Part shown: piece by piece, positions 6,207-47,490 of the stretch
Position numbering within the stretch: position 1 is the first letter of the stretch
How the letters are laid out: each line of letters opens with the position of its first letter
Assembly: GCA_017631325.1 (NCBI GenBank)
Contig: JAGBTM010000053.1
Coordinates: 1-64,000, forward strand
Length of the DNA stretch: 64,000 nucleotides
Source of the DNA: Clostridia bacterium
GTDB taxonomy: Bacteria > Bacillota > Clostridia > Oscillospirales > CAG-272
Direction of reading: 5' to 3'
Program-made: the position numbers and the translations under genes
The notes under the pieces: model-generated
What the model was told of the DNA's origin: nothing
What the model saw: the letters and a program-made list of their open reading frames with translations, nothing else
The model's database searches: none

Positions 6207-7181
6207 ATGAACAAGAAAATATACGCTGCCACCGCGCTCACGGTAACACAAAAGGAAGCCTTTCTCGAGGCCTCGCGCGAGGAGCTTCGCGTACTCGTTG
6301 CTATAATGGAGACCCGTGGCGCGCCCCTTTCCGAAGAAGAGCTCTCAAAGCTCTCTGGCACCTCGCTCGCAAGAACGAAATCGGCGCTTGCGCTTTGGGA
6401 AGCCGAGGGCGTCATCTCGGTGAGTGAGCAGGACACGAATATAATCTATGAGTTTGAAGAGACTATCTCGCGTGGAGAAATCTCGGAGGAAAGCTCAAAG
6501 GAGGTTGCCGAGGGTATCAGAAACAACCATCTTGAAGCGCTCCTCTCGGAATGCGCCAAAATTATGGGGCGCACCTCTCTTGCCACCCACGAAATCAAGA
6601 ACATAAGCGCGCTTTACACCCAATACTCGCTTTCTACCGAGTACATATTAAACCTAGCAGCCCACCTCGCATCTCGCTCAAAGCTCACCTCGGTACGACT
6701 GAGGGACAAGGCCATCGAGCTCGTAGAGCACGGCTGTGACGACGCAGAAAGTCTCTCAATTTACATCGAAAACGCAGAAAAATCCTCTAGCGAGGAATGG
6801 GAAATGCGCCGTCTTTTTGGTATATACAGCCGCGCGGTTACACCGAGCGAGAGAAAATATTTTAAGCGTTGGACCGAGGAGCTCGGCTTTTTCTCCGAGA
6901 TTATCTCCGAGGCGTACGATATAGCAGTTCTTAACACGGGCAAGGCGTCCTTGCCTTACATTGACAAAATCCTCGGTGCATGGCACGAGGCCGGCTGCAA
7001 AACCGCAGCCGAATGCCGAGCATACAACGATAAAAGCAAGAGCACCCACTCTCAAAAGACACAACCTCGCACCCAGAGAGCCAAAAAGAGTGAAAATCCC
7101 ACCCCAAAATACGGCAACTTTGATGCAAACGACGCCTTTCTTGCGGCGCTCGACCGTTCCTATACCAAAGAGGATAAATAG
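6207..7181 (+). CDS. DnaD-domain replication initiation protein
   Basis: A 324-residue protein with the two-part layout of primosomal DnaD/DnaB-like proteins. Residues about 20-90 form a winged-helix-like region (PLSEEELSKLSGTSLARTKSAL), and about 110-185 and 205-265 form DnaD-type helical repeats, the second ending TGKASLPYIDKILGAW before a basic, low-complexity tail. Proteins of this kind help load the replicative helicase at oriC. The DnaC/DnaI-like loader lies 260 bases downstream on the same strand, a common Clostridia pairing that supports the role. The start has only a weak AAAGGTGG site 10 bases upstream. Confidence 0.85.
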   Translation: MNKKIYAATALTVTQKEAFLEASREELRVLVAIMETRGAPLSEEELSKLSGTSLARTKSALALWEAEGVISVSEQDTNIIYEFEETISRGEISEESSKEVAEGIRNNHLEALLSECAKIMGRTSLATHEIKNISALYTQYSLSTEYILNLAAHLASRSKLTSVRLRDKAIELVEHGCDDAESLSIYIENAEKSSSEEWEMRRLFGIYSRAVTPSERKYFKRWTEELGFFSEIISEAYDIAVLNTGKASLPYIDKILGAWHEAGCKTAAECRAYNDKSKSTHSQKTQPRTQRAKKSENPTPKYGNFDANDAFLAALDRSYTKEDK

Positions 7182-7224: not shown

Positions 7225-7420
7225 ACTCAGCTCTAAAAAACAGCCCCAAGCAAGAGTTTAACCCAAAAAATTACACCGGGGCAAAACATACTCTCTTCAA
7301 AAATTAACCAAAAGCAAAAGTTTAACCCGAAAAAATTCCATCGAGGCAAAAAAGACATACTCTTTAACCTCAAAAGCCTCCCAAAAGCAAGGATTTACCA
7401 AAGACACAAAGGACAAAATC
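7225..7420. repeat. Imperfect ~64-72-bp direct repeat between dnaD-like and dnaC
   Basis: A segment starting AGCAAGAGTTTAACCC at about 7249 recurs at about 7312 (AGCAAAAGTTTAACCC), continuing through a shared GGCAAAA then ACATACTCT block. A third degenerate start lies near 7385. No gene or terminator was recognised here. Confidence 0.6.
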
Positions 7421-7443
7421 ACCTTTATAGAAAGAGGAATGAT

Positions 7444-8391
7444 ATGTACAGCTACGAGAATTACCAGAAGGTAAAAGCCGAAATTGAAAAACGCAGACTT
7501 GACGCCATAGCGAGCGCTGAAGCGAGGAGTGAGATGCTGAGGCTCGAGAGCGCGCAGATAAAGGAAATCGACGAGGAGCTTTCAAGCACCGGACTTCTTA
7601 TTTTCAAAACTGCCTGCTCGGGCGGTGACATCACGCCAATAAAGGAGCGCAATAAGTCTCTCAATAAGCAGAGAGTAAAAATAATAAAGAGCCTCGGCTA
7701 TCCAGAGGACTACACCGAGGTTAAGTATCACTGTAAAAAATGCTCCGATACGGGCTATATTGACGGTGTTAAAATGTGCAAGTGTCTTAAAGAGGAGCTT
7801 ATCAAGGCAACCATCGCCTCATCGGGCATCGGCGACCTTATATCCGAGCAGTCCTTTGACAACTTCGACCTCTCACTCTACGAGGAGGGCACAGAGCGTG
7901 ACAGAATGACGGCAAACCTTGCCCGCGCAAAGCAGTACGCAAGGGACTTTTCAAAAAAGCGCTCAAATCTCTTGTTCGTCGGCACCACGGGTACGGGAAA
8001 AACCCACCTCTCCACAGCCATTGCGCGCGAGGTTATCCACATGGGCTACGACGTACTCTACGACAGCATACACAACATTGTATCGGACTTCGAGGCCGAT
8101 AAATTCAAGAGCGGGTACGGTCAGCTCGAGCAAAAGAGCGAAAAATACCTCGAATGTGACCTTTTGATTATCGACGACCTCGGCACTGAGTTCTCAAACC
8201 AGTTCACCGTGTCCTGCATCTATAATCTTCTCAACACACGTCAAAATCACGGCAAGGCAACCATAATCTCAACCAATCTCTCCCCCGAGGAGCTCTCGGC
8301 AAAATACGAGGGAAGAATTTACTCCCGCCTAGTAGGTAAAGACACGACGGTGCTTATGTTCGTTGGCAAGGATAGACGCCTTTATAGATAA
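7444..8391 (+). CDS. dnaC: DnaC/DnaI-type helicase-loading ATPase
   Basis: Loads the replicative helicase onto origin DNA. The 315 residues include an N-terminal coiled-coil-like charged region, a zinc-binding segment (YHCKKCSDTG followed by MCKCLKE) near residue 100, and an AAA+ domain with Walker A GTTGTGKTHLS near 180, Walker B LLIIDDLGTE near 240 and a sensor region TIISTNLSPEEL. This arrangement fits DnaI-like loaders, and the upstream DnaD-domain gene fits the same process. The start ATG has AGAAAGGA upstream. Phage DnaC homologues look similar, but nothing phage-like surrounds it. Confidence 0.92.
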   Translation: MYSYENYQKVKAEIEKRRLDAIASAEARSEMLRLESAQIKEIDEELSSTGLLIFKTACSGGDITPIKERNKSLNKQRVKIIKSLGYPEDYTEVKYHCKKCSDTGYIDGVKMCKCLKEELIKATIASSGIGDLISEQSFDNFDLSLYEEGTERDRMTANLARAKQYARDFSKKRSNLLFVGTTGTGKTHLSTAIAREVIHMGYDVLYDSIHNIVSDFEADKFKSGYGQLEQKSEKYLECDLLIIDDLGTEFSNQFTVSCIYNLLNTRQNHGKATIISTNLSPEELSAKYEGRIYSRLVGKDTTVLMFVGKDRRLYR

Positions 8392-8697
8392 TCTACATTC
8401 AATATCAAAACAAAAACGCTTTTAATATTAGAGTGATTAAAGCCGATTTTAATATTAGAGTAGAAGGCATTTAATATTAGGGCCAAAAACGTTTAATATT
8501 AGGTCCGAAAGCATTTAATATTATAGTAGCAAAAACCTCATCAATTTGAAAGAGTAGCAAAAGCCTCATCAATTTTAGAAGAACCATAGTCACAATTTTA
8601 TTTAGAATAACAAAAGCGGCCAGAAAACCAATTCGGTTCCCTGGCCGCTTTTGTTTTTTGTGCTTTTTGCACATATTTATTTACATTTTGGCATTTT
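8392..8697. repeat. Intergenic region: short dispersed repeats and bidirectional terminator
   Basis: Five copies of TTTAATATTAG spaced about 21-27 bases apart lie at about 8421-8525. They are followed by two copies of a 28-bp unit (AGTAGCAAAA, then CCTCATCAATTT) at about 8525-8582. The terminator is annotated separately. No gene was recognised. Confidence 0.8.
8608..8662. terminator. Bidirectional rho-independent terminator (dnaC / asnA)
   Basis: Arms AAAGCGGCCAG and CTGGCCGCTTT form an 11-bp stem with a loop of about 20 bases. A T-rich tract follows on the plus strand and a shorter one on the minus strand. It lies between the convergent dnaC and asnA genes and probably serves both. Confidence 0.88.
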
Positions 8698-9705
8698 TTA
8701 GAGAAGTCTGATACCTGCCTTGCGACAGCCCTCAACCGTATCCTTGTCCCAAATACTGCACTGTACCTCACCGATATGCGCACAGCCGAGCATAAGCATA
8801 CAAAGTCTTGACTGACCTATGCCGCCGCCAACGGTAAGAGGAAGCTCGCCGCGAAGAAGCATGCTGTGGAAAGGAAGCGTGCGTCTGTCGTTGCAGCCGC
8901 GTTCGGTAAGCTGACGGTCGAGCGACACCTCGTCAACTCTGATACCCATAGAGGATATTTCAAACGAACGGGAAAGAACCTCGTTGTAGAAGAGAATATC
9001 ACCGTTAAGCTCCCAGTCGTCATAATCGGGCGCTCTGCCGTCGTGAGGCTGGCCGTTCTTAAGCTTGCCGCCTATCTTCATAATAAGGACGGTGCCGTAT
9101 TTCTTGGTTATAGCGTCCTCGCGCTCTTTTGAGGTGAGGTCGGGATACATCTCGAGAAGCTCCTCCGAGGTTATCGCAAACATACTGCGCTTGAGGGTAG
9201 TCTTATGCTCGGGAAACTCGCGCGAGAGCGCCTCGTTGGTATCGCATATAACGTCAACTATAGACTGCGCAGTATCTATAAGATACTGAATATTTCTATT
9301 CTCTCTCGTTATAACCTTTTCCCAGTCCCACTGGTCAACGTAGATGGAATGAATATTGTCAAGCTCCTCGTCACGCCTTATAGCATTCATATCGGTATAA
9401 AGACCGTTGCCAACGAAGAAATTATACTCCTTAAGCGCCATTCTCTTCCACTTAGCAAGAGAATGAACAACCTCAGCACACTCACCGACAGCAGGAACAT
9501 CAAACGAAACGGGACGCTCGGTGCCGTTAAGGTTGTCGTTAAGTCCCGAGTTCTCGGTTACAAAAAGGGGCGCTGACACTCTCTTTAAATTAAGAGACTT
9601 GGCGAGCTTGTCCTGAAAGGTGCGCTTTATAAAGGATATAGCCTTCTGCGTTCTGTAAACGTCATAAGAGCTTTTATAATTTTCGGGAATAAAAAGCTTG
9701 CTCAT
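8698..9705 (-). CDS. asnA: Aspartate--ammonia ligase
   Basis: Makes asparagine from aspartate, ammonia and ATP. It is related to class II aminoacyl-tRNA synthetases. The 335 residues match AsnA throughout: FIPENYKSSYDVYRTQKAI at the N-terminus, PLFVTENSGLNDNLNG, VHSLAKWKRMAL, the YVDQWDWEK segment and the C-terminal LTVGGGIGQSRLCMLML motif. The start has a TAGGA site upstream. It is monocistronic, ending at a terminator. A perfect 17-bp palindrome lies 25 bases upstream of the start (9730-9746) and may be an operator. Confidence 0.96.
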   Translation of the reverse strand: MSKLFIPENYKSSYDVYRTQKAISFIKRTFQDKLAKSLNLKRVSAPLFVTENSGLNDNLNGTERPVSFDVPAVGECAEVVHSLAKWKRMALKEYNFFVGNGLYTDMNAIRRDEELDNIHSIYVDQWDWEKVITRENRNIQYLIDTAQSIVDVICDTNEALSREFPEHKTTLKRSMFAITSEELLEMYPDLTSKEREDAITKKYGTVLIMKIGGKLKNGQPHDGRAPDYDDWELNGDILFYNEVLSRSFEISSMGIRVDEVSLDRQLTERGCNDRRTLPFHSMLLRGELPLTVGGGIGQSRLCMLMLGCAHIGEVQCSIWDKDTVEGCRKAGIRLL

Positions 9706-36520: not shown

Positions 36521-38791
36521 TCAGTTGTGGCAAAGGCCGTCCGCAAGATGTACAGTATCAGAGAGCTTGTAATCGTTGTTGATTACAGATGCGTCACAGT
36601 AATACTTTGCGTATCCTGCATAGCGGTAGTCGCCGTAAATCCAGTATGTGCCGCTTACTACCACGGATTTGTCACCCTCGGTAGCCACAGCGTTGTCAAA
36701 CACCTCGTAGTCAGTGGGATTTGAGCAAATCCACTCAGCCTCAACAATGCAGCCCTCAACAACGGTTTCGTTCTGAGAGAGACCGCAAAGTCCGCCTGCG
36801 TTATAGGTGCCGTAAATCTCTGTGTTCTTTACAGAGCAGCCCTTGAAGGTAGTTACTCCGCCGGGATCAGCCGCGCCGCCAATAAGCGCGCCAACCTTAC
36901 CGAAGCCTATTACCACGGAGTCAACGACGTGCACGTTCTCGAGCGTTACGGTGCCGTAAGCATAGCCCGCTACGATACCGTACATATTGCCGTTCTGAAT
37001 CTTGTAGGAGGCGTCGTATCTCGACACGGATGCGCCCTCAAAGGTTACGTTCTTAACAACTGCGGGGCCAACAAGGTTTGCAAAGAATCCGTTTCCGTAT
37101 CCTGCGTCCTTCTCAACCTCAAGGTTGTAGATTGTGTATCCGTTACCGTCAAAGGTTCCGTAGAAGCACTTGTGAGTGCTGGGACCGATAGGCTCCCATT
37201 TGCTGCCCGCAAGGTCAATGTTCTGACTGAGCTTAACGGTCTTGCCGTGGAAGGTATTTCCTGCTGCTACGAGCGCGGAGAAGCCCGCAAGCTCTTCTGC
37301 CGTGCCTATTACGAACTCGCTTGCCGCAGAATCGTACCAGGTGCTGTCACTGCTGCCGTCCCAAGCGTCAACCATTATAATCTCGTTATTTTCCTCAACG
37401 AAATCAAAGTCTGAGACGAGCGTGTCGGTCTCGTACATATAAGGAACGCCCTTAGTCGCGTCGTCAAGAGCATCTCCTGCCTGACAGCCGTAGAAGGTGC
37501 TGTTCTTGATAACTACGCTTGCGTCAAAGCCCGCGCCGTCGTTACCGGAGCCGATAGCAATACCGGGCTTCTTGCTGATGAGCTCGAAGGTACAACCGTC
37601 AACAGTAACCTCGGTTACGTCAGTGCCGTACTTCTCCTCGATTTTAAGTCCGCGAGTACCCTTGAAAACGCAGTTCTCAAAGCTTACGGCTCCGTCACTT
37701 ACCCAAGCGGCGTAAACGCTGTCCTCTTCGGTGAGGAAGGTACAGTTTCTGAAGGTTGCGTTGCTGTCAGCCTCGAGCATAATACCGCTCGTAAAGGTAA
37801 CGTTCTCAAAATAAAGGTCGCCGCCAAGCTCAAGATAAGTAAACTCCCAAGCACTCTCGTTATAGGATACCGAGTTGTCTACGATAGTCATATCCTTGAA
37901 GGTGAGAGAGCCGTTAGCATTCGCAACCGCGCTTACGCCGGCACCGTCAAATACGAGATACGTGCTGTCCGCACCGTATCCGAGAAGGGTGATGTTGTTC
38001 GCGTGGCTCGGAGCTATGTCGCCGACACCCGACTGTCCCTTGGTGGTAAGCTTGGAATATCCGCTCCACTTATAAGTGAAGTCAGCGTTGTCAAGAGCAC
38101 CGAGTGCTCCGTTTATATCCATAGCGGTCTGTGCCGAGCTGCCGCCCTGAGCCGAAACCTCGTCGGTAACGTCAGCATTTCCCTGTACCGCCTGAAGTGT
38201 GAGAACAATACCCACGCTTCTCTCTGTGCCGGGCTCGCTCTGAACCTCGTTGCCTACAGAATAAGGAAGCTCGATAGTAACCTCGATTACGTTATCCTCA
38301 AGCTGAGTTTCTCTTGCAAGATACTTCCAGAAGGTAACTCCGCCATTCATGGCATAATCTACGCCCTCGATGTTAGCGCTCGCCACAAGAGCCGATTTAA
38401 GCGCCTCATCAGAGCCGTCGGTATAGCCCATAGCAACTCTGTACTGTACGTCAACGTTGGAAAGATTCTCAACGTTGATATTTACCGTAACCGCGTCACC
38501 GGGAACTATGTTCACGAGCTTGATATCGCCCTCTCCCATTACCTCAGCGTATCCGCCCGTAGCAAAGTATGCCTTTCCATCGGTAGCCTCAGACATATAA
38601 ACGTCAGCGCCCCTAGAGGTTGCAACAAGAGATGTCGAATCGAGCTTTGCCGTCATCTTTACCGTACCCGAGCTTACGGCTATGTTAACCGTATCCTCGC
38701 TGGTAAAGATAGCATAGGTTGCTCCCGCAATCATGCTCACGCACATAACAATGGTAAGCACTGCGGAAATTATAACATTTCTTCTTTTCAT
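36521..38791 (-). CDS. Secreted SipW-dependent surface protein with TasA-like head and beta-helix repeats
   Basis: A 756-residue exported protein. The signal region (MKRRNVIISAVLTIVMCVSM, then AGATYAIFTSEDTVNIAVSSG) is the SipW type: cleavage is expected after TYA and the mature part starts with an aromatic/FTS stretch. Residues about 45-205 form a TasA/camelysin-like beta sandwich ending VGNEVQSEPGTERSVGIVL. Residues about 250-470 look like right-handed beta-helix coils (SLTFKDMTIVDN, YFENVTFTSG), and about 490-700 have GLUG-type repeats (FYGTFDGNGYTIYNLEVEK, VGALIGGAADPGG). No sortase motif or C-terminal membrane anchor is seen, so attachment may be through the TasA-like fibre. It is the last gene of the operon. 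Confidence 0.8.
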   Translation of the reverse strand: MKRRNVIISAVLTIVMCVSMIAGATYAIFTSEDTVNIAVSSGTVKMTAKLDSTSLVATSRGADVYMSEATDGKAYFATGGYAEVMGEGDIKLVNIVPGDAVTVNINVENLSNVDVQYRVAMGYTDGSDEALKSALVASANIEGVDYAMNGGVTFWKYLARETQLEDNVIEVTIELPYSVGNEVQSEPGTERSVGIVLTLQAVQGNADVTDEVSAQGGSSAQTAMDINGALGALDNADFTYKWSGYSKLTTKGQSGVGDIAPSHANNITLLGYGADSTYLVFDGAGVSAVANANGSLTFKDMTIVDNSVSYNESAWEFTYLELGGDLYFENVTFTSGIMLEADSNATFRNCTFLTEEDSVYAAWVSDGAVSFENCVFKGTRGLKIEEKYGTDVTEVTVDGCTFELISKKPGIAIGSGNDGAGFDASVVIKNSTFYGCQAGDALDDATKGVPYMYETDTLVSDFDFVEENNEIIMVDAWDGSSDSTWYDSAASEFVIGTAEELAGFSALVAAGNTFHGKTVKLSQNIDLAGSKWEPIGPSTHKCFYGTFDGNGYTIYNLEVEKDAGYGNGFFANLVGPAVVKNVTFEGASVSRYDASYKIQNGNMYGIVAGYAYGTVTLENVHVVDSVVIGFGKVGALIGGAADPGGVTTFKGCSVKNTEIYGTYNAGGLCGLSQNETVVEGCIVEAEWICSNPTDYEVFDNAVATEGDKSVVVSGTYWIYGDYRYAGYAKYYCDASVINNDYKLSDTVHLADGLCHN

Positions 38792-38881: not shown

Positions 38882-40621
38882 TTACGGATTAATGCTCTCC
38901 AACTGCTTTGAGGGATTGTTGTAAACGAAATTTACACCATCGTGTTCAGTGCCGCCGTACACACCCTGACCGCCTCCGAAGAGCTGGTCAAATACGATAA
39001 GCTCGTTATGAGCCTCACCCTCGTTGTGTACGTGGTTATCGTCTACCACCTTATTTCCCTCGGCATCGGTTGCTACACCGTATCTGGGATTAGAGTATGC
39101 AGAGTTTGAAACGCCTGCCTGTACTCTTACGTAGGGCCAGGACGTTCCGGCAAACTCACAGTAGGTATAATCAGCCCACTCGCCGTAGATAACCGTAACG
39201 TTCTCGCAGGTGAGCTGAGGAGCATACGCTATCGTGCCGCCGCTTTCGCTCGTGGTCGTTTTACCCGTGTTTCCGATAAGCATACCGCAACGACGGTAAG
39301 CGTACCACTGATAAGAGGAGGTTACGTCATTGTAAGCATCAATTCTGCAAGCAACCGTCGTGTCCTTGATAAGAATTTCAGCACTTCCGCCGCATCCGCC
39401 GATAACACCGCCGATAGAGTTGTCGAAATCGCCCCACTGAGCAGCCACCGAAACGCTCGAATCAACGTTACAGTTGATAAACGTCTGCTTGCCGCTTGCC
39501 CAACCGACAATACCGCCGGAATAGTACTGATAGTCAGCGCATCTTGCATTTTTAACAGTGATGTTCTCAAACGTACATTCACCGTCGGATACACCTGCAA
39601 TCACACCGCAAATAGCACTCTCGCCCGATATATCCGCACCGTCAACTGTAAGATTCTTGATATGAGCATCCTGAACAGCTCCAAACAGACCGAGTCCGCA
39701 GTCGCTGTAGTAATATCCGTTATCAAGCGCCCAGGTGTTCTGATTGAGGTTCTTTACGGTTTTTCCGTTTCCGTCAAAGGTGCCCTTGAACGCCTTATCG
39801 TGTCTGTACGAGCCAATAGGGTCAAAGCAAAGAAGCTCTCCGTTTTCGTCGTATGCCTTAAGGTCCAGGTCGGATTCGAGCGTAATGTTCTTTCCCTCAA
39901 AGGTTTCACCGGCGTCAACAAGCTCCATAAGGCCCGCGAACTCTTCCTCCGTAACGAGCGAGAATTCGCTTGCGTTTTCGTCGTACCAAGAGGTGTCAGC
40001 CGTGCCGTCCCAGAAAATAATCTCTTCGCCAAGAGAGCCGTCAGCATTACCCTGAATTGCTTCAACGGTCATAGCGATTTTGGCAGTGAGGCCCTGATAC
40101 TCGTTGCCGGCATCCTCGGGAAGCTCTATGCTGACGTTGACAGCCTCCATATCAGCTCCGTCCTCGAGGGTTGCCCACGCAGATCTGTAGCTATGTATAG
40201 AGGTGTACTCTTCTCCGTTAATTGTAATAACGAGCCCCTGCATAAGCTCCGTGCCCTCAACGCAAGCAATTTTATAACGGTAAAGAACGTTAACGTTGCT
40301 TTCATTGGTACCAACCAACTGAAGTGAAACCTTGTCACCGGGCAAAATTCTGTCAACGGAAAGAGTTGCACTCTCTGCATCGAACGATGCGCTTCCGCCC
40401 TGCGTAAAGGTTCCGTCCTCGCGTCCCTCAAATCCTTCTTCATCATCAAGGGATGTCGTCTTCATATTTGCTACCGAAGCTGTCATCTTTACAGTACCCG
40501 AGCTTACCGCAATATTTACGGTGTCCTCGCTTGTAAAGAGTGCAAAGGTAGCTCCGCTTATCATACTTACACACATAACAATGGTCAGCACTGCGGAAAT
40601 AATTGCGTTTCTCTTTTTCAT
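38882..40621 (-). CDS. Secreted SipW-dependent surface protein with TasA-like head and GLUG repeats
   Basis: A 579-residue paralogue of the preceding protein. The first about 45 residues (MKKRNAIISAVLTIVMCVSM, ATFALFTSEDTVNIAVSSG) are nearly identical between the two, so the genes arose by duplication. The frame is open to 40696, but AGGAG precedes the ATG at 40621 where the signal begins, so that start is used. A TasA-like sandwich (about 45-200, VLYRYKIACVEG, PEDAGNEYQGLTAKIAMTV) is followed by GLUG/beta-helix units (FKGTFDGNGKTVKNLNQ, GLFGAVQDAHIKNLTVDGAD, SGGIVGWASGKQTFINC). Probably a surface adhesin or matrix component carried by the fibre; substrate unknown. Confidence 0.8.
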   Translation of the reverse strand: MKKRNAIISAVLTIVMCVSMISGATFALFTSEDTVNIAVSSGTVKMTASVANMKTTSLDDEEGFEGREDGTFTQGGSASFDAESATLSVDRILPGDKVSLQLVGTNESNVNVLYRYKIACVEGTELMQGLVITINGEEYTSIHSYRSAWATLEDGADMEAVNVSIELPEDAGNEYQGLTAKIAMTVEAIQGNADGSLGEEIIFWDGTADTSWYDENASEFSLVTEEEFAGLMELVDAGETFEGKNITLESDLDLKAYDENGELLCFDPIGSYRHDKAFKGTFDGNGKTVKNLNQNTWALDNGYYYSDCGLGLFGAVQDAHIKNLTVDGADISGESAICGVIAGVSDGECTFENITVKNARCADYQYYSGGIVGWASGKQTFINCNVDSSVSVAAQWGDFDNSIGGVIGGCGGSAEILIKDTTVACRIDAYNDVTSSYQWYAYRRCGMLIGNTGKTTTSESGGTIAYAPQLTCENVTVIYGEWADYTYCEFAGTSWPYVRVQAGVSNSAYSNPRYGVATDAEGNKVVDDNHVHNEGEAHNELIVFDQLFGGGQGVYGGTEHDGVNFVYNNPSKQLESINP

Positions 40622-40704
40622 TTTTTCTCCTAGATAAATTAACAAAGGGGTGAAATTTTGTGTATGGAACCACAAAATACAAACTTTTGTTTGCAAAACC
40701 AGCC

Positions 40705-41352
40705 TTATTCAACACTAGCAGTCTTCTGAACAGCCTCTATGATAAGGTCAAAATAAACTTCCTGATTTTGCGCCTTATCGTTCGTTCCGTTTGTCGTGTC
40801 GTTCACAAAAGAAACCGAAACTGCGAACTCTCTTTCGCTAGAAAGATTGTTCATCTCGCCCGTATAAAGCACGAGCCCCTCTTCCTTAATCTCCGAGAGA
40901 GTTTTCGATGCTACCGTTTCGCCACCCTCCGTTGCGCTAAATATCAGCTGCTCCGCAAGCGCGTTGCTCTCGCCGTTTTCATCGCCGTGTACTACTACCT
41001 TCACCGTGTAATTAAAAGCAACGTTTCCGTTGTTTCCAAGCGAAAGATACGCAGTATAGCTTGTGCCGGGAACCACTACCTCGTCACCTTCAATGCCAAA
41101 TATGTTAGCCTCGGGCGAATTGGTAAATGACATATCTTCATCATCCGTAACGGTAACGAGCTCGCCCGTCGTCTTGTCGAGAACCACCCTTTCAAGCTTG
41201 GTTCTTTCAAGAGTTACGTCGAGAGTTCCTGCAACGAGATGATGTGCAACCACGGCTCCGTCGGTGAAAATTGCGTAAGTGCTTGCAGTGATAATACCAA
41301 AGCACAGAAGCAGAGTCGCGCACGCGATTATCAACGATTTGATTTTTCCCAT
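40705..41352 (-). CDS. TasA/camelysin-like SipW-dependent fibre protein
   Basis: A 215-residue exported protein made of little more than a SipW-type signal (SLIIACATLLLCFGIITAST, then YAIFTDGAVV) and one TasA/camelysin-like beta sandwich (VVPGTSYTAYLSLGNNGNVAFNYTVKVVV). It is a candidate major fibre subunit, since the other secreted proteins of the locus carry the same domain plus extra repeats. It has a strong AAAGGAGG ribosome binding site, the best of the operon, which fits a highly made structural protein. It lies between sipW and the two beta-helix genes. Confidence 0.8.
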   Translation of the reverse strand: MGKIKSLIIACATLLLCFGIITASTYAIFTDGAVVAHHLVAGTLDVTLERTKLERVVLDKTTGELVTVTDDEDMSFTNSPEANIFGIEGDEVVVPGTSYTAYLSLGNNGNVAFNYTVKVVVHGDENGESNALAEQLIFSATEGGETVASKTLSEIKEEGLVLYTGEMNNLSSEREFAVSVSFVNDTTNGTNDKAQNQEVYFDLIIEAVQKTASVE

Positions 41353-41470: not shown

Positions 41471-42301
41471 CTATAAATCGGTCTCAAGAGATTTTTGAAC
41501 CGAAGAGGCATCTGCTTCTATATCAGTGTCAGAACAAGGAAGCTCGGATGCGGGCGAGGGGACGTCGGCACTCAACTCCTTTGCGCGCTGAAGCTCAAGT
41601 ATCATTTTCTCAAGCTCCTCTATCTTTGCATTCTGGCGATTCTTTTCTTCCTTGAAACGCTTTTTCTTATCCGCGCCGAGAACGTTCACGATGCGAATTA
41701 TCTCAATTATCATAATAATCAGACAGGGCAAAATTATCAAAAGCACCATTCCGAGCGGTTGCCTTACTCCCCACGTCGCAACTCCCAGAACGTAACTCTG
41801 ACCCACCACCTTACCAACTATGTAGTTCAATCCTACCGTGTCGGCAGTGTCGATTTTCTGCTTCAGGGTTTTTGAGTCCGACGCCTTATTGTCACCCTCA
41901 AGGCTTATAATGTATCCGCCGCCCTTGCTCTCTTCTATATCTACTATTCGGTGAGTTATAGTTTCCTGCCTCTGATACACGTACTTAAAGGTAAGCACGT
42001 CGCCTACCTTGAGTGATGCATACCACTCGTCAGCAGCGGCTGAATCCTTTGGCACCTCTTCGATAAACACCATAGATTTCAGAGGGATATCCTTAATTTC
42101 AAACCCCGATACGTCGGTATCCGGACACTTTTCCATAGATTCCGAAATTACAACGCGCATCTGATAGCCAAATACGCTAACAGCTCCGTCACCCTCACCT
42201 CGCGAAGAAAGCGTAGCCACCAGAGCAAAAACACACAGCACAAGAAATAAGTAGGTTAAAGCGGTCGAGACGATTTTGAAAATTCGTTTAACTTTACTCA
42301 T
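41471..42301 (-). CDS. sipW: Signal peptidase I, SipW (ER/archaeal) type
   Basis: Cleaves the special signal peptides of TasA-like proteins. The 276 residues contain an N-terminal membrane anchor (residues about 10-31), the serine motif VVISESMEK (nucleophile Ser55), and a His in place of the general-base Lys (QETITHRIVD, about residue 118), the mark of the SipW/ER-type Ser-His enzymes. LEGDNKASDSK and IVGKVVGQSYVLGVATW follow, and a second membrane segment near residues 185-205 leads to a coiled-coil-like cytoplasmic tail (RFKEEKNRQNAKIEELEKM). The tail is longer than in Bacillus SipW. The start overlaps the preceding gene by 8 bases. Confidence 0.92.
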   Translation of the reverse strand: MSKVKRIFKIVSTALTYLFLVLCVFALVATLSSRGEGDGAVSVFGYQMRVVISESMEKCPDTDVSGFEIKDIPLKSMVFIEEVPKDSAAADEWYASLKVGDVLTFKYVYQRQETITHRIVDIEESKGGGYIISLEGDNKASDSKTLKQKIDTADTVGLNYIVGKVVGQSYVLGVATWGVRQPLGMVLLIILPCLIIMIIEIIRIVNVLGADKKKRFKEEKNRQNAKIEELEKMILELQRAKELSADVPSPASELPCSDTDIEADASSVQKSLETDL

Positions 42302-42806
42302 ATATAGAGCTTATACCTTTCTGATTTAATGAAAGCAGCATATCAAATTTTGTCGAGCTCCCCATGGCCTCGTTGCCTACCGTTTCGGGCATAAAATAAG
42401 TAACCTTGAATTCCGCCTCGCATCCCTCTTCAAGATTGGTTTCATAAGTAATCGGCTCGGAATATTTTAAAAGAGTTTTTAATTTGCCACTCGCTATTTT
42501 CTTTTCGCCCAGCCTGACGGTAACCTCAACAAACTCCTCAAGTCCGCCATCAAGCCTTTGGTCAAGCTCGAGGGCAATTACGTAATCCGCACTTTCGCGG
42601 CACTCTATTTTAAATGAGTATTCCCTCATCTCACCCGGAGCAAGCCAAAGCTCGTTTACTTCAATTTTCCGAAGCTCTCCCTCGTTTATCTCTATCACAC
42701 TCTCGGGCGCGCTGGCGGTTACGTCGTAATATATCTCTCTACCAACCGCAAAAATTGAGGTTGCAACAATTCCTATACCGCAAATCGCGCTGACGATAGG
42801 AACCAA
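42294..42806 (-). CDS. TasA-like exported protein, first gene of the SipW operon
   Basis: A 170-residue protein with an N-terminal hydrophobic segment (VSAICGIGIVATSIFAVG) and a single beta-sandwich-like domain with TasA-type features (WLAPGEMREYSFKIECRES, then FMPETVGNEAMGSSTKFDM). The signal lacks the usual ATYAxFT cleavage site, so it may stay anchored in the membrane and act as a fibre base or assembly factor, like TapA in position; that is inference. The start is taken as TTG at 42806 with GGAG five bases before it; no ATG in frame is available. The invertible promoter segment lies 64 bases upstream. Confidence 0.6.
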   Translation of the reverse strand: MVPIVSAICGIGIVATSIFAVGREIYYDVTASAPESVIEINEGELRKIEVNELWLAPGEMREYSFKIECRESADYVIALELDQRLDGGLEEFVEVTVRLGEKKIASGKLKTLLKYSEPITYETNLEEGCEAEFKVTYFMPETVGNEAMGSSTKFDMLLSLNQKGISSIYE

Positions 42807-42870
42807 AGCATCTCCGATTTTAATAATAATCCCCCCTTTACAATAACTTACTTGTGTTAATTAAAATATC

Positions 42871-42890
42871 ATATAATAATATGTTATATG
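42871..42890 (+). repeat. Left inverted repeat of the invertible segment
   Basis: Perfect 20-bp inverted copy of 43082-43101. It has internal half-sites ATATAA and TTATAT around a 7-base core, as in tyrosine-recombinase crossover sites. It lies 65 bases upstream of the first SipW-operon gene. Confidence 0.85.
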
Positions 42891-43081
42891 ACAATTTTTT
42901 ACAAATAACAGACAAAATATTGGTAAAAGTGTGAAAAAAGACAAACATCTTTTAAAATACCAATGTTAACAAATTGTTAATTAAACGGTTAAACTATTGA
43001 TTTTAACTGACGTTTGTGATATATTATCAACAAAACTTAAACATTTAAGAAAATATATGTAAAGATTTCTATTTATTTTTG
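42891..43081. promoter_or_regulatory. Invertible promoter segment (putative phase switch)
   Basis: 191 bases between perfect 20-bp inverted repeats. A promoter at 42997-43025 reads rightward, away from the SipW/TasA operon. Inversion would put its start of transcription near 42940, about 134 bases before the operon's first codon. The segment also holds a dyad TTAACAA-A-TTGTTAA near 42966-42980, possibly a binding site. On the minus strand only a weak promoter (TTGTCA, 15-base spacer, TATGAT) spans the left repeat in the present orientation. See the finding for the full argument. Confidence 0.72.
42997..43025 (+). promoter_or_regulatory. Promoter inside the invertible segment, pointing away from the operon
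   Basis: TTGATT (42997-43002), 17-base spacer, TATATT (43020-43025). There is no plus-strand gene to its right before a terminator, so in this orientation it appears to drive nothing. Confidence 0.7.
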
Positions 43082-43101
43082 CATATAACATATTATTATA
43101 T
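43082..43101 (-). repeat. Right inverted repeat of the invertible segment
   Basis: Exact reverse complement of 42871-42890. Internal layout: ATATAA (43083-43088), core CATATTA (43089-43095), TTATAT (43096-43101). Confidence 0.85.
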
Positions 43102-43122
43102 TCTGCTTTTTGACGTGGTTTT

Positions 43123-43156
43123 GCAAGCTGTTTTTTCGGCTTGCTTTTTGTTTTTT
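43123..43156 (+). terminator. Terminator just outside the invertible segment
   Basis: Stem GCAAGC/GCTTGC (43123-43128 and 43139-43144) with a 10-base loop, followed by an 11-of-12 T tract on the plus strand only. The only plus-strand promoter that could need it is the one inside the invertible segment; it would also shield the 3' end of the recombinase gene. Confidence 0.78.
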
Positions 43157-43254: not shown

Positions 43255-44196
43255 TCACTTAGCCGACATATACAGCTCCAACCGACACATCGCTTTTTTC
43301 TTGGTGTCAAGCAGGCTGTGACTGTATCTATTCAAGGTTAGCGTTGCGTCCTTGTGTCCCATCAGCTCACTAAGCGTTTTAATATCAACTCCAGCTTCCA
43401 CAGCACGCGTAGCAAAGGTATGCCTCAATGCGTGAAAATTTAGTGGATTTTTGACTATATTTATTTGCATTTTAGCAAAAAAGTGCTGATAATTTCTAAT
43501 GTTTGGACTTTCGCCTTTTTCATTAATAATTACAAATTCTCCCGTCGCTCGCGCCTTCTCTCTTGACAAAATATTGATAAGTGAAGGGGCTATCGGTATA
43601 TCTCTTTTGGAGCTTTTTGATTTTGGAGTGTCATAGAGATTTCGCCACTGCCCATCGGTATCCTTTGCGCAATATTTGGTTCTTTGAATTCTAAAAAGCT
43701 TCGAGCGCAAATCAACGTCCCCCCACTTCAACGCAAGCAGCTCTCCTATTCTCAGTCCCGTATAGAGTGCTATCAGAATTCCGATATGCAAGGAATCTCC
43801 CTCTCTTAAGCACCGCCTCTCGAGCTCCGACTGCTCGCGCTTTGTAAAAACGCGCATTTCTCTCTCCTTGCCCGAAAACCGTTTGACAAGCGTGCAGGGG
43901 TTGCTTTTAACCAATCCAGCCTTCAAAGCATCTTCAAAGATGGATTTTATTATAGCTCTCATTAGATTTACGCTCGCGGCTGTCATTTTACAGCCGTTTT
44001 TCTTGTTTCCCGACTTGAGCTTTTGATATAAGAAATCGTAAATAGTATCCGCCCCTATTTCTTCAATTTCCATTTGTTCAAAGTGCGGATTAATATGAAT
44101 CTCGAGTACGCTCTTATAAATCAAATAGGTGTGGTGCTTTACCCTTGGCTGTTTATAAATTTCAAGCCACCGCTTCTGCCATTGTAGAAATTTCAT
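43255..44196 (-). CDS. Tyrosine recombinase (site-specific integrase family)
   Basis: A 313-residue recombinase. Residues about 1-100 form the SAM-like core-binding domain; the catalytic domain follows with TGLRIGELLALKW (first Arg), KSSKRDIPIAP (Lys), HALRHTFATR (HxxR), LMGHKDATLTLNRYSHS (second His and the nucleophile Tyr). All catalytic residues are present. It resembles phage/ICE integrases but no phage or conjugation genes, and no tRNA attachment site, lie nearby. It sits next to a promoter segment bounded by inverted repeats, so I propose it acts as an invertase there. Its 3' end faces the segment. Confidence 0.92.
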   Translation of the reverse strand: MKFLQWQKRWLEIYKQPRVKHHTYLIYKSVLEIHINPHFEQMEIEEIGADTIYDFLYQKLKSGNKKNGCKMTAASVNLMRAIIKSIFEDALKAGLVKSNPCTLVKRFSGKEREMRVFTKREQSELERRCLREGDSLHIGILIALYTGLRIGELLALKWGDVDLRSKLFRIQRTKYCAKDTDGQWRNLYDTPKSKSSKRDIPIAPSLINILSREKARATGEFVIINEKGESPNIRNYQHFFAKMQINIVKNPLNFHALRHTFATRAVEAGVDIKTLSELMGHKDATLTLNRYSHSLLDTKKKAMCRLELYMSAK

Positions 44197-47369: not shown

Positions 47370-47490
47370 CGATTTTACATTATGTATTCCACATTCTGCA
47401 TTATGTATTTTGCATTATGTATTTTGCATTCTGCATTATGTATTTTGCATTCTGCATTCCTCATTCCTCATTTATCATTCTTAATTTATT
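47370..47490. repeat. Low-complexity GCATTATGTATTTT-type repeat
   Basis: Alternating TGCATTATGTATTT and TGCATTC units recur about six times, passing into CATTCCTCATTC stretches. The 47241-47500 part of the gap holds no gene. Related simple repeats recur at 52110, 53990 and 55830 in the pyr operon. Confidence 0.8.

Follow-up and report, generated by a model that had tools for sequence, protein, structure and literature searches.

A segment of DNA bounded by inverted repeats lies between a tyrosine recombinase gene and an operon for SipW/TasA-type secreted proteins in the 64,000-nucleotide stretch of a gut Clostridia bacterium genome analyzed here (the window), raising the question of whether the segment is flipped by the neighboring enzyme and thereby aims a promoter at the operon or away from it. 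The original prediction described such a phase-variable promoter switch, captured in its OFF orientation. We consider it highly probable that 42871-43101 (231 bp including both repeats) is a promoter inverton that is OFF in the sequenced copy and controls the SipW/TasA-type operon. In the proposed mechanism, the recombinase encoded 153 bp away would bind both 20-bp inverted sites and flip the segment. In the OFF orientation, the main promoter would fire toward the 3' end of the recombinase gene and its transcript would be stopped at 43123-43156; in the inverted state, the same promoter would face the u170-sipW-tasA-like operon, giving the ON state.

The repeat-bounded segment and its neighbors

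The features of the locus are as follows.

36521-38791, minus strand: secreted beta-helix protein, 756 aa (PF13229, 6.8e-9)
38882-40621, minus strand: TasA/camelysin-type secreted protein, 579 aa (PF12389)
40705-41352, minus strand: TasA/camelysin-like secreted protein, 215 aa (PF12389, 3.4e-4)
41471-42301, minus strand: SipW-like signal peptidase, 276 aa (NF046067, 1.6e-15)
42294-42806, minus strand: first operon gene (u170), 170 aa, TTG start
42871-42890, no strand: left inverted repeat, 20/20 complementary to 43082-43101, probable recombination site
42876-42904, minus strand: weak promoter-like TTGTAA-17-TATTAT spanning the left repeat, 9/12, current orientation only
42891-43081, no strand: probable invertible segment, 191 bp, bounded by the repeats, with analogous cassettes in relatives
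42997-43025, plus strand: internal promoter TTGATT-17-TATATT with a TGn extended -10, pointing to the recombinase side (OFF)
43082-43101, no strand: right inverted repeat, probable recombination site
43123-43156, plus strand: intrinsic terminator, hairpin 43123-43144 plus a T run
43255-44196, minus strand: tyrosine recombinase, 313 aa, probable invertase (Phage_integrase, SAM_3)

The perfect 20-bp repeats, 191 bp apart, were found as predicted, and each is itself the dyad ATATAA/CATATTA/TTATAT that had been described. Among 4000 first-order Markov sequences modeled on the surrounding 450 bp, no perfect repeat was longer than 17 bp, short of the 20 bp observed, so the repeats exceed chance. No further copy was detected in the genome (G000) with up to three mismatches permitted, and inversion in silico leaves both arms identical. 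A dyad within each repeat would also suit AT-rich palindromes that serve as binding sites or hairpins and take no part in recombination, but just two perfect copies exist in the genome, in inverted order and beside a recombinase of a cassette-bearing group, which leaves this regulatory or structural role with an extremely slim chance; a chance palindrome was rejected on the same observations.

The right-pointing promoter claimed within the segment was recovered as its top-scoring promoter by our own score, matching 9 of 12 consensus positions, with the call made by consensus only. Inverting the segment in silico places this best promoter before the operon; its minus-strand -10 then ends at 42947, leaving 141 nt to the TTG start codon of the 170-aa gene. 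The claim of a terminator acting on the plus strand alone also held, the structure being reported for that strand only (folding energy -12.8 kcal/mol, z -2.7), and hairpins occupy the corresponding position in the three loci that were folded (L061, L063, and L023). A weak minus-strand promoter across the left repeat, proposed as TTGTCA-15-TATGAT, exists as a pattern, but TTGTAA-17-TATTAT (42904-42876) is the better match, and inversion in silico removes its -35. As far as the main promoter is concerned, the present state is thus read as OFF, perhaps with a weak leak: the minus-strand promoter could allow some operon expression in that state. A variant of the inverton reading, whose probability overlaps with that of the preferred one, holds that two promoters of different strength would make the switch one between high and low expression. 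TATTAT in the left repeat does pair with TTGTAA only in the present orientation, but promoter-like matches come cheaply in these AT-rich surroundings (13 found versus 5.6 expected per 2 kb) and a single promoter of the TTGAYT-17-TATAAT type recurs in the cassettes of relatives, and we judge the variant rather unlikely.

The genes of the locus all lie on the minus strand: the recombinase comes first, then, past the cassette, the 170-aa gene, the sipW-like gene, and three genes for secreted proteins. The SipW operon that had been placed 65 bases to the left of the repeat is there, but it begins with the gene for the 170-aa protein, with sipW second. Homologues of u170 with 25-37% identity were found at L061, L062, L063, L102, and L103, and none was detected at L064, L065, or L104. 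Upstream of its TTG start, at 42807-42850, three in-frame ATT codons follow a GGGGGG run, and the true start may lie upstream of the TTG. The 276-aa SipW-like protein scores 57.2 bits against an NF046067 cut-off of 190 and is not classed as the Bacillus SipW equivalog. Against PF12389 (cut-off 22.5 bits), the 215-aa protein, which has homologues at 34-40% identity, scores 20.9 bits, and the 579-aa protein, for which an ATG start was chosen (the open reading frame list gives a TTG start at 40696), scores 23.1 bits. The model of the SipW-dependent signal peptide, TIGR04088 (cut-off 19), gives 15 bits, below cut-off, for the 579-aa protein and no match for the 215-aa protein; proteins of L109, L112, L150, L164, and L332 reach the cut-off, and those of L107 and L111 do not. 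The N-terminus of the 756-aa protein resembles the TasA model NF046066 over residues 8-55 (E 0.012, 15 bits against a cut-off of 450). A PDB sequence search with the TasA-like alignment returned one match, a ribosomal protein at E 0.61. The SipW and TasA assignments therefore consist of weak but consistent profile matches, several of them below cut-off, together with homologues in relatives, and the protein families suggest that the products may form surface fibers. Farther along the window, at 47372-47466, tandem GCATTATGTATTTT-type units lie upstream of a dihydroorotase-like gene, and the N-terminus of a pyrD-like open reading frame at L065, MRNAECRMQNEE, suggests, as read from the protein, a similar repeat string.

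The window-type recombinase group and its cassettes

The recombinase matches Phage_integrase (5e-26) and SAM_3 (1.2e-8). Its catalytic set, which we take to be R149, H255, R258, H281, and Y291 plus a K, is invariant across the four-row alignment A2, and its gene ends 153 bp from the right repeat, in keeping with the nearby, catalytically complete enzyme that had been claimed. In a tree of 50 recombinases, the protein is the first branch of a clade of 15 (support 100/98), apart from phage and element integrases; no relatives of it were found in genome_contigs. Members of its group were sought in 59 relatives, 394 genomes of the order, 395 genomes of the family, and viral_contigs, giving 52 recombinases in total, of which 15 were placed by the tree and the other 37, outside the tree, by profile score (E <= 1e-90). 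Among the best 80 matches to A2 in viral_contigs, one belonged to the group (L187, 43%), and the remainder were at most 35% identical.

Cassettes were scored by a uniform test in loci with at least 300 bp downstream, as inverted repeats of 15-mers with at most one mismatch, starting no more than 170 bp from the recombinase stop. Enough 3' sequence was available for 46 of the 52 members, and 27 of these 46 carried inverted repeats, against a single case among 62 control integrases whose 3' flanks were distinct; a repeat together with a promoter of at least 10/12 was seen in 0 of the 62. Under an earlier, looser test (perfect arms of at least 12 bp), 4 of 64 controls had repeats, the repeat being identical in two of them. 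The uniform test failed in 19 of the 46 members, including L021, L300, and L302-L304.

These counts bear on the possibility that nothing flips: the enzyme would be an integrase belonging to a degenerate integrative element whose former ends persist as the repeats. The protein does resemble phage and element integrases (PHROG 1, 6.9e-67; the PDB "Int protein" 6en0, 2.6e-28), but what lies between the repeats is a 191-bp segment with a promoter rather than the recombinase, the cassette layout is common in the group and almost absent among the integrases, no element-like open reading frame of at least 60 aa lies between the recombinase and its neighbors, and the ABC-transporter neighbor is shared with genome G060. 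An integrated-element remnant was rejected on the segment layout, the group coupling, and the lack of element-like reading frames, and we regard it as highly improbable.

Within the 27 cassettes, the promoter points toward the recombinase (OFF) in 24, the window included, toward the other side (ON) in one (L336), and is undecided in two, so that the ON state is nearly unseen in the window's group. A search within this group for pairs of cassettes reversed over nearly their full length found none; minus-strand matches extend to at most 67 bp, and several of them are the repeats themselves. The single orientation seen at the window and the excess of OFF cassettes could also mean that the cassette formerly inverted and is now locked OFF in the window's lineage. 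We consider such a locked state improbable, if a little less so than an integrase remnant, given that the repeats have kept all 20 of 20 matches and the recombinase retains an intact reading frame and conserved catalytic columns. An active inverton remains our preferred reading. Many of the group's sites resemble CTATT-N5-AATAG, of which the window's ATAAT-AATAT-GTTAT is, by eye, a diverged version.

A first downstream open reading frame was found for 26 of 27 other loci, and 12 were scanned by profile; among these are one TasA-type and one prepilin-type protein, two with Listeria-Bacteroides repeats, one with a condensation domain, and one DegT-like protein. At L331 (G566:C6), the protein encoded after a window-type recombinase and cassette begins with a prepilin-type N-terminus (PF07963, TIGR02532). 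The genome G060 carries the same ABC transporter as the window (68% identical), divergent to u170-sipW-tasA, with no recombinase between them. Between its ABC gene and u170 lies an inverted match of 14 bp, rich in purines (L103, 10589-10602/10750-10763, inner 147); it was dropped as a cassette, being unlike either site type by eye and having no adjacent recombinase. Elsewhere in G060, a window-type recombinase and an OFF cassette are followed directly by a 696-aa protein that exceeds the cut-offs of PF12389 and TIGR04088, which makes at least two occasions on which a window-type switch came to sit before SipW-type cargo. G060 has a third window-type recombinase (L343), beside which the uniform test finds no cassette.

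Several related structures were observed along the way. In the window's own genome, a paralogous recombinase at L021 (G000:C20:5000-14269) has a short repeat pair at 7350-7520, in which TTGATT-17-TATAAT points at the recombinase and which precedes a 132-aa gene; it is likely a second switch of this genome. By eye, the L021 structure is cassette-like, with a 10-bp perfect core, but it fails the uniform criterion and was scored as a miss. At L022, a 124-bp perfect inverted repeat surrounds a run of N after a window-clade recombinase (7227-7533), perhaps because both orientations were assembled and scaffolded together. At L070 (G011:C14), 424-bp perfect inverted repeats (6560-6983 and 8461-8884) flank a recombinase, and the arm, as read, encodes a type IV prepilin N-terminus, making a pilin-switching segment possible. 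Related recombinases at L066 and L069 lie inside 20-bp and 31-bp inverted repeats approximately 1.4 kb apart, where the recombinase gene itself could flip.

SipW operons of the genus and reversed rec280 cassettes

Counting that of the window, 69 genomes of the genus were covered, and nine of them have a sipW homologue of at least 41% identity. A complete cassette lies upstream of the SipW operon in G035, G010, G018, and G034, and in G075 the contig ends within the cassette; no comparable repeat was found near the sipW homologue of G021 or the stop-containing one of G076. The complete genus cassettes adjoin a different recombinase, named rec280, with just 31% identity to that of the window over 98 aa, and its sites are ACATAA-N6-TTATGT. 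The embedded promoter, TTGAYT-17-TATAAT by eye, is OFF in G035, G018, and G034 and ON in G010 and G075. These two distantly related switch systems appear to have become attached independently to SipW/TasA-type operons.

A scan of genome_contigs with rec280 gave 575 relatives, the best 80 of which were analyzed; these were mostly Clostridia metagenome-assembled genomes, many from the gut of sheep, goat, and deer. Among these best 80, the uniform test detected repeats in 54 of the 61 loci with at least 350 bp downstream, the other 19 being too short, and a looser test detected repeats in 56 of the 80. The 54 cassettes comprised 9 ON, 32 OFF, and 13 undecided. SipW-type signal sequences, sought with our own pattern, occurred in plus-strand open reading frames downstream of 14 of 48 of these loci, a fraction biased upward because similarity to recombinases adjacent to SipW operons set the ranking of the 80 loci, and upstream, on either strand, in 0 of 72. 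Contigs end within 300 bp of the recombinase on the 3' side in 19 and on the 5' side in 0 of the 80 rec280 loci, and in 6 versus 1 of the 52 window-type loci; assembly breaks from mixed orientations would explain this asymmetry, among possible causes.

The original prediction proposed a search of related genomes for the same repeats around an inverted middle. No such genome was found for the window locus, of which no second orientation was seen, but analogous rec280 cassettes occur in both orientations between species. A 313-bp stretch of L107 that spans the whole cassette aligns with L108 in reverse (minus strand, 87.9%) while the flanks align in the forward sense (plus strand, 95% and 81%); between L107 and L109, 321 bp align on the minus strand at 73.8%, again with plus-strand flanks. 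The L108 contig ends 95 bp beyond its cassette; L107 and L109 both have tetR-u170-sipW-tasA homologues downstream. L107 was read as OFF and L109 as ON. Promoter scores of 10.5 (reverse) and 10 (forward-like) lie close together in L107, so that score alone does not make its OFF label sharp; the reversal of its cassette is independent of that label. In G071 (L105), a tetR-like gene adjoins the cassette on a contig with no sip match; its reading as an ON cassette before sip/tetR was dropped for that reason, and L105 counts only as a reversed homologue of the cassette end.

The coupling of the recombinase group to cassettes and the reversed cassettes at homologous SipW operons support the promoter-inverton reading, in line with the predicted switch captured OFF. 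The association between group and cassettes suggests that the window recombinase acts on the adjacent repeats. The window copy would then be flipped by its neighboring enzyme, its orientation would turn operon transcription ON or OFF, and a minority of cells may make SipW-processed surface fibers.

Known switches and the meaning of the locus

In Bacillus subtilis, tapA-sipW-tasA is a matrix operon whose heterogeneous expression arises through regulator bistability. The window operon resembles it in encoding a SipW-type signal peptidase with TasA-type secreted proteins; heterogeneity, in contrast, apparently comes from DNA inversion. RecV of Clostridioides difficile is a tyrosine recombinase, and one RecV serves several distant sites. 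In the flagellar and cmr switches (PMC7446863, PMC8844915), it inverts a short stretch of DNA that precedes an operon. The window shares with that system a recombinase that would flip a short segment before an operon in Clostridia, but here each cassette examined lies beside the gene of its own recombinase, and a SipW/TasA-type operon is the target. The fimS switch of Escherichia coli employs two recombinases. It likewise places a short invertible promoter segment before a fiber operon and uses tyrosine recombination, but the fiber is unrelated, the recombinase subfamily differs, and the window has one recombinase instead of two; the switch governs type 1 fimbriae (PMC9993118). For the hCom2 gut community, PMC11892184 pairs inverton group 139, from Clostridia, with invertase group 35 (a tyrosine-type recombinase/integrase), reports an inverton of Clostridium sp. 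D5 whose orientation shifts over passages, and lists surface genes among the inverton targets. The window is similar to group 139 as a Clostridia inverton adjoining a tyrosine recombinase; "signal peptidase" and "TasA" do not occur in the main text of PMC11892184. A search by titles and the starts of abstracts, with subscription journals mostly outside its range, found no promoter inverton controlling a SipW/TasA-type matrix system. The mechanism of promoter inversion is known; the recombinase group, its sites, and its target have no match in the literature searched.

On balance, we lean toward the broader view that SipW/TasA-type fibers of gut Clostridia are commonly switched by inversion and usually OFF, with at least two distantly related recombinase/site systems attached independently, even to homologous operons within a genus. 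If the inverton reading is right, a heritable genetic switch in uncultured gut Clostridia would govern a matrix system of which regulator-driven bistability in Bacillus is the best-known form of control. Distantly related switches attached to operons of one kind would offer a clean example of selection converging on phase variation.
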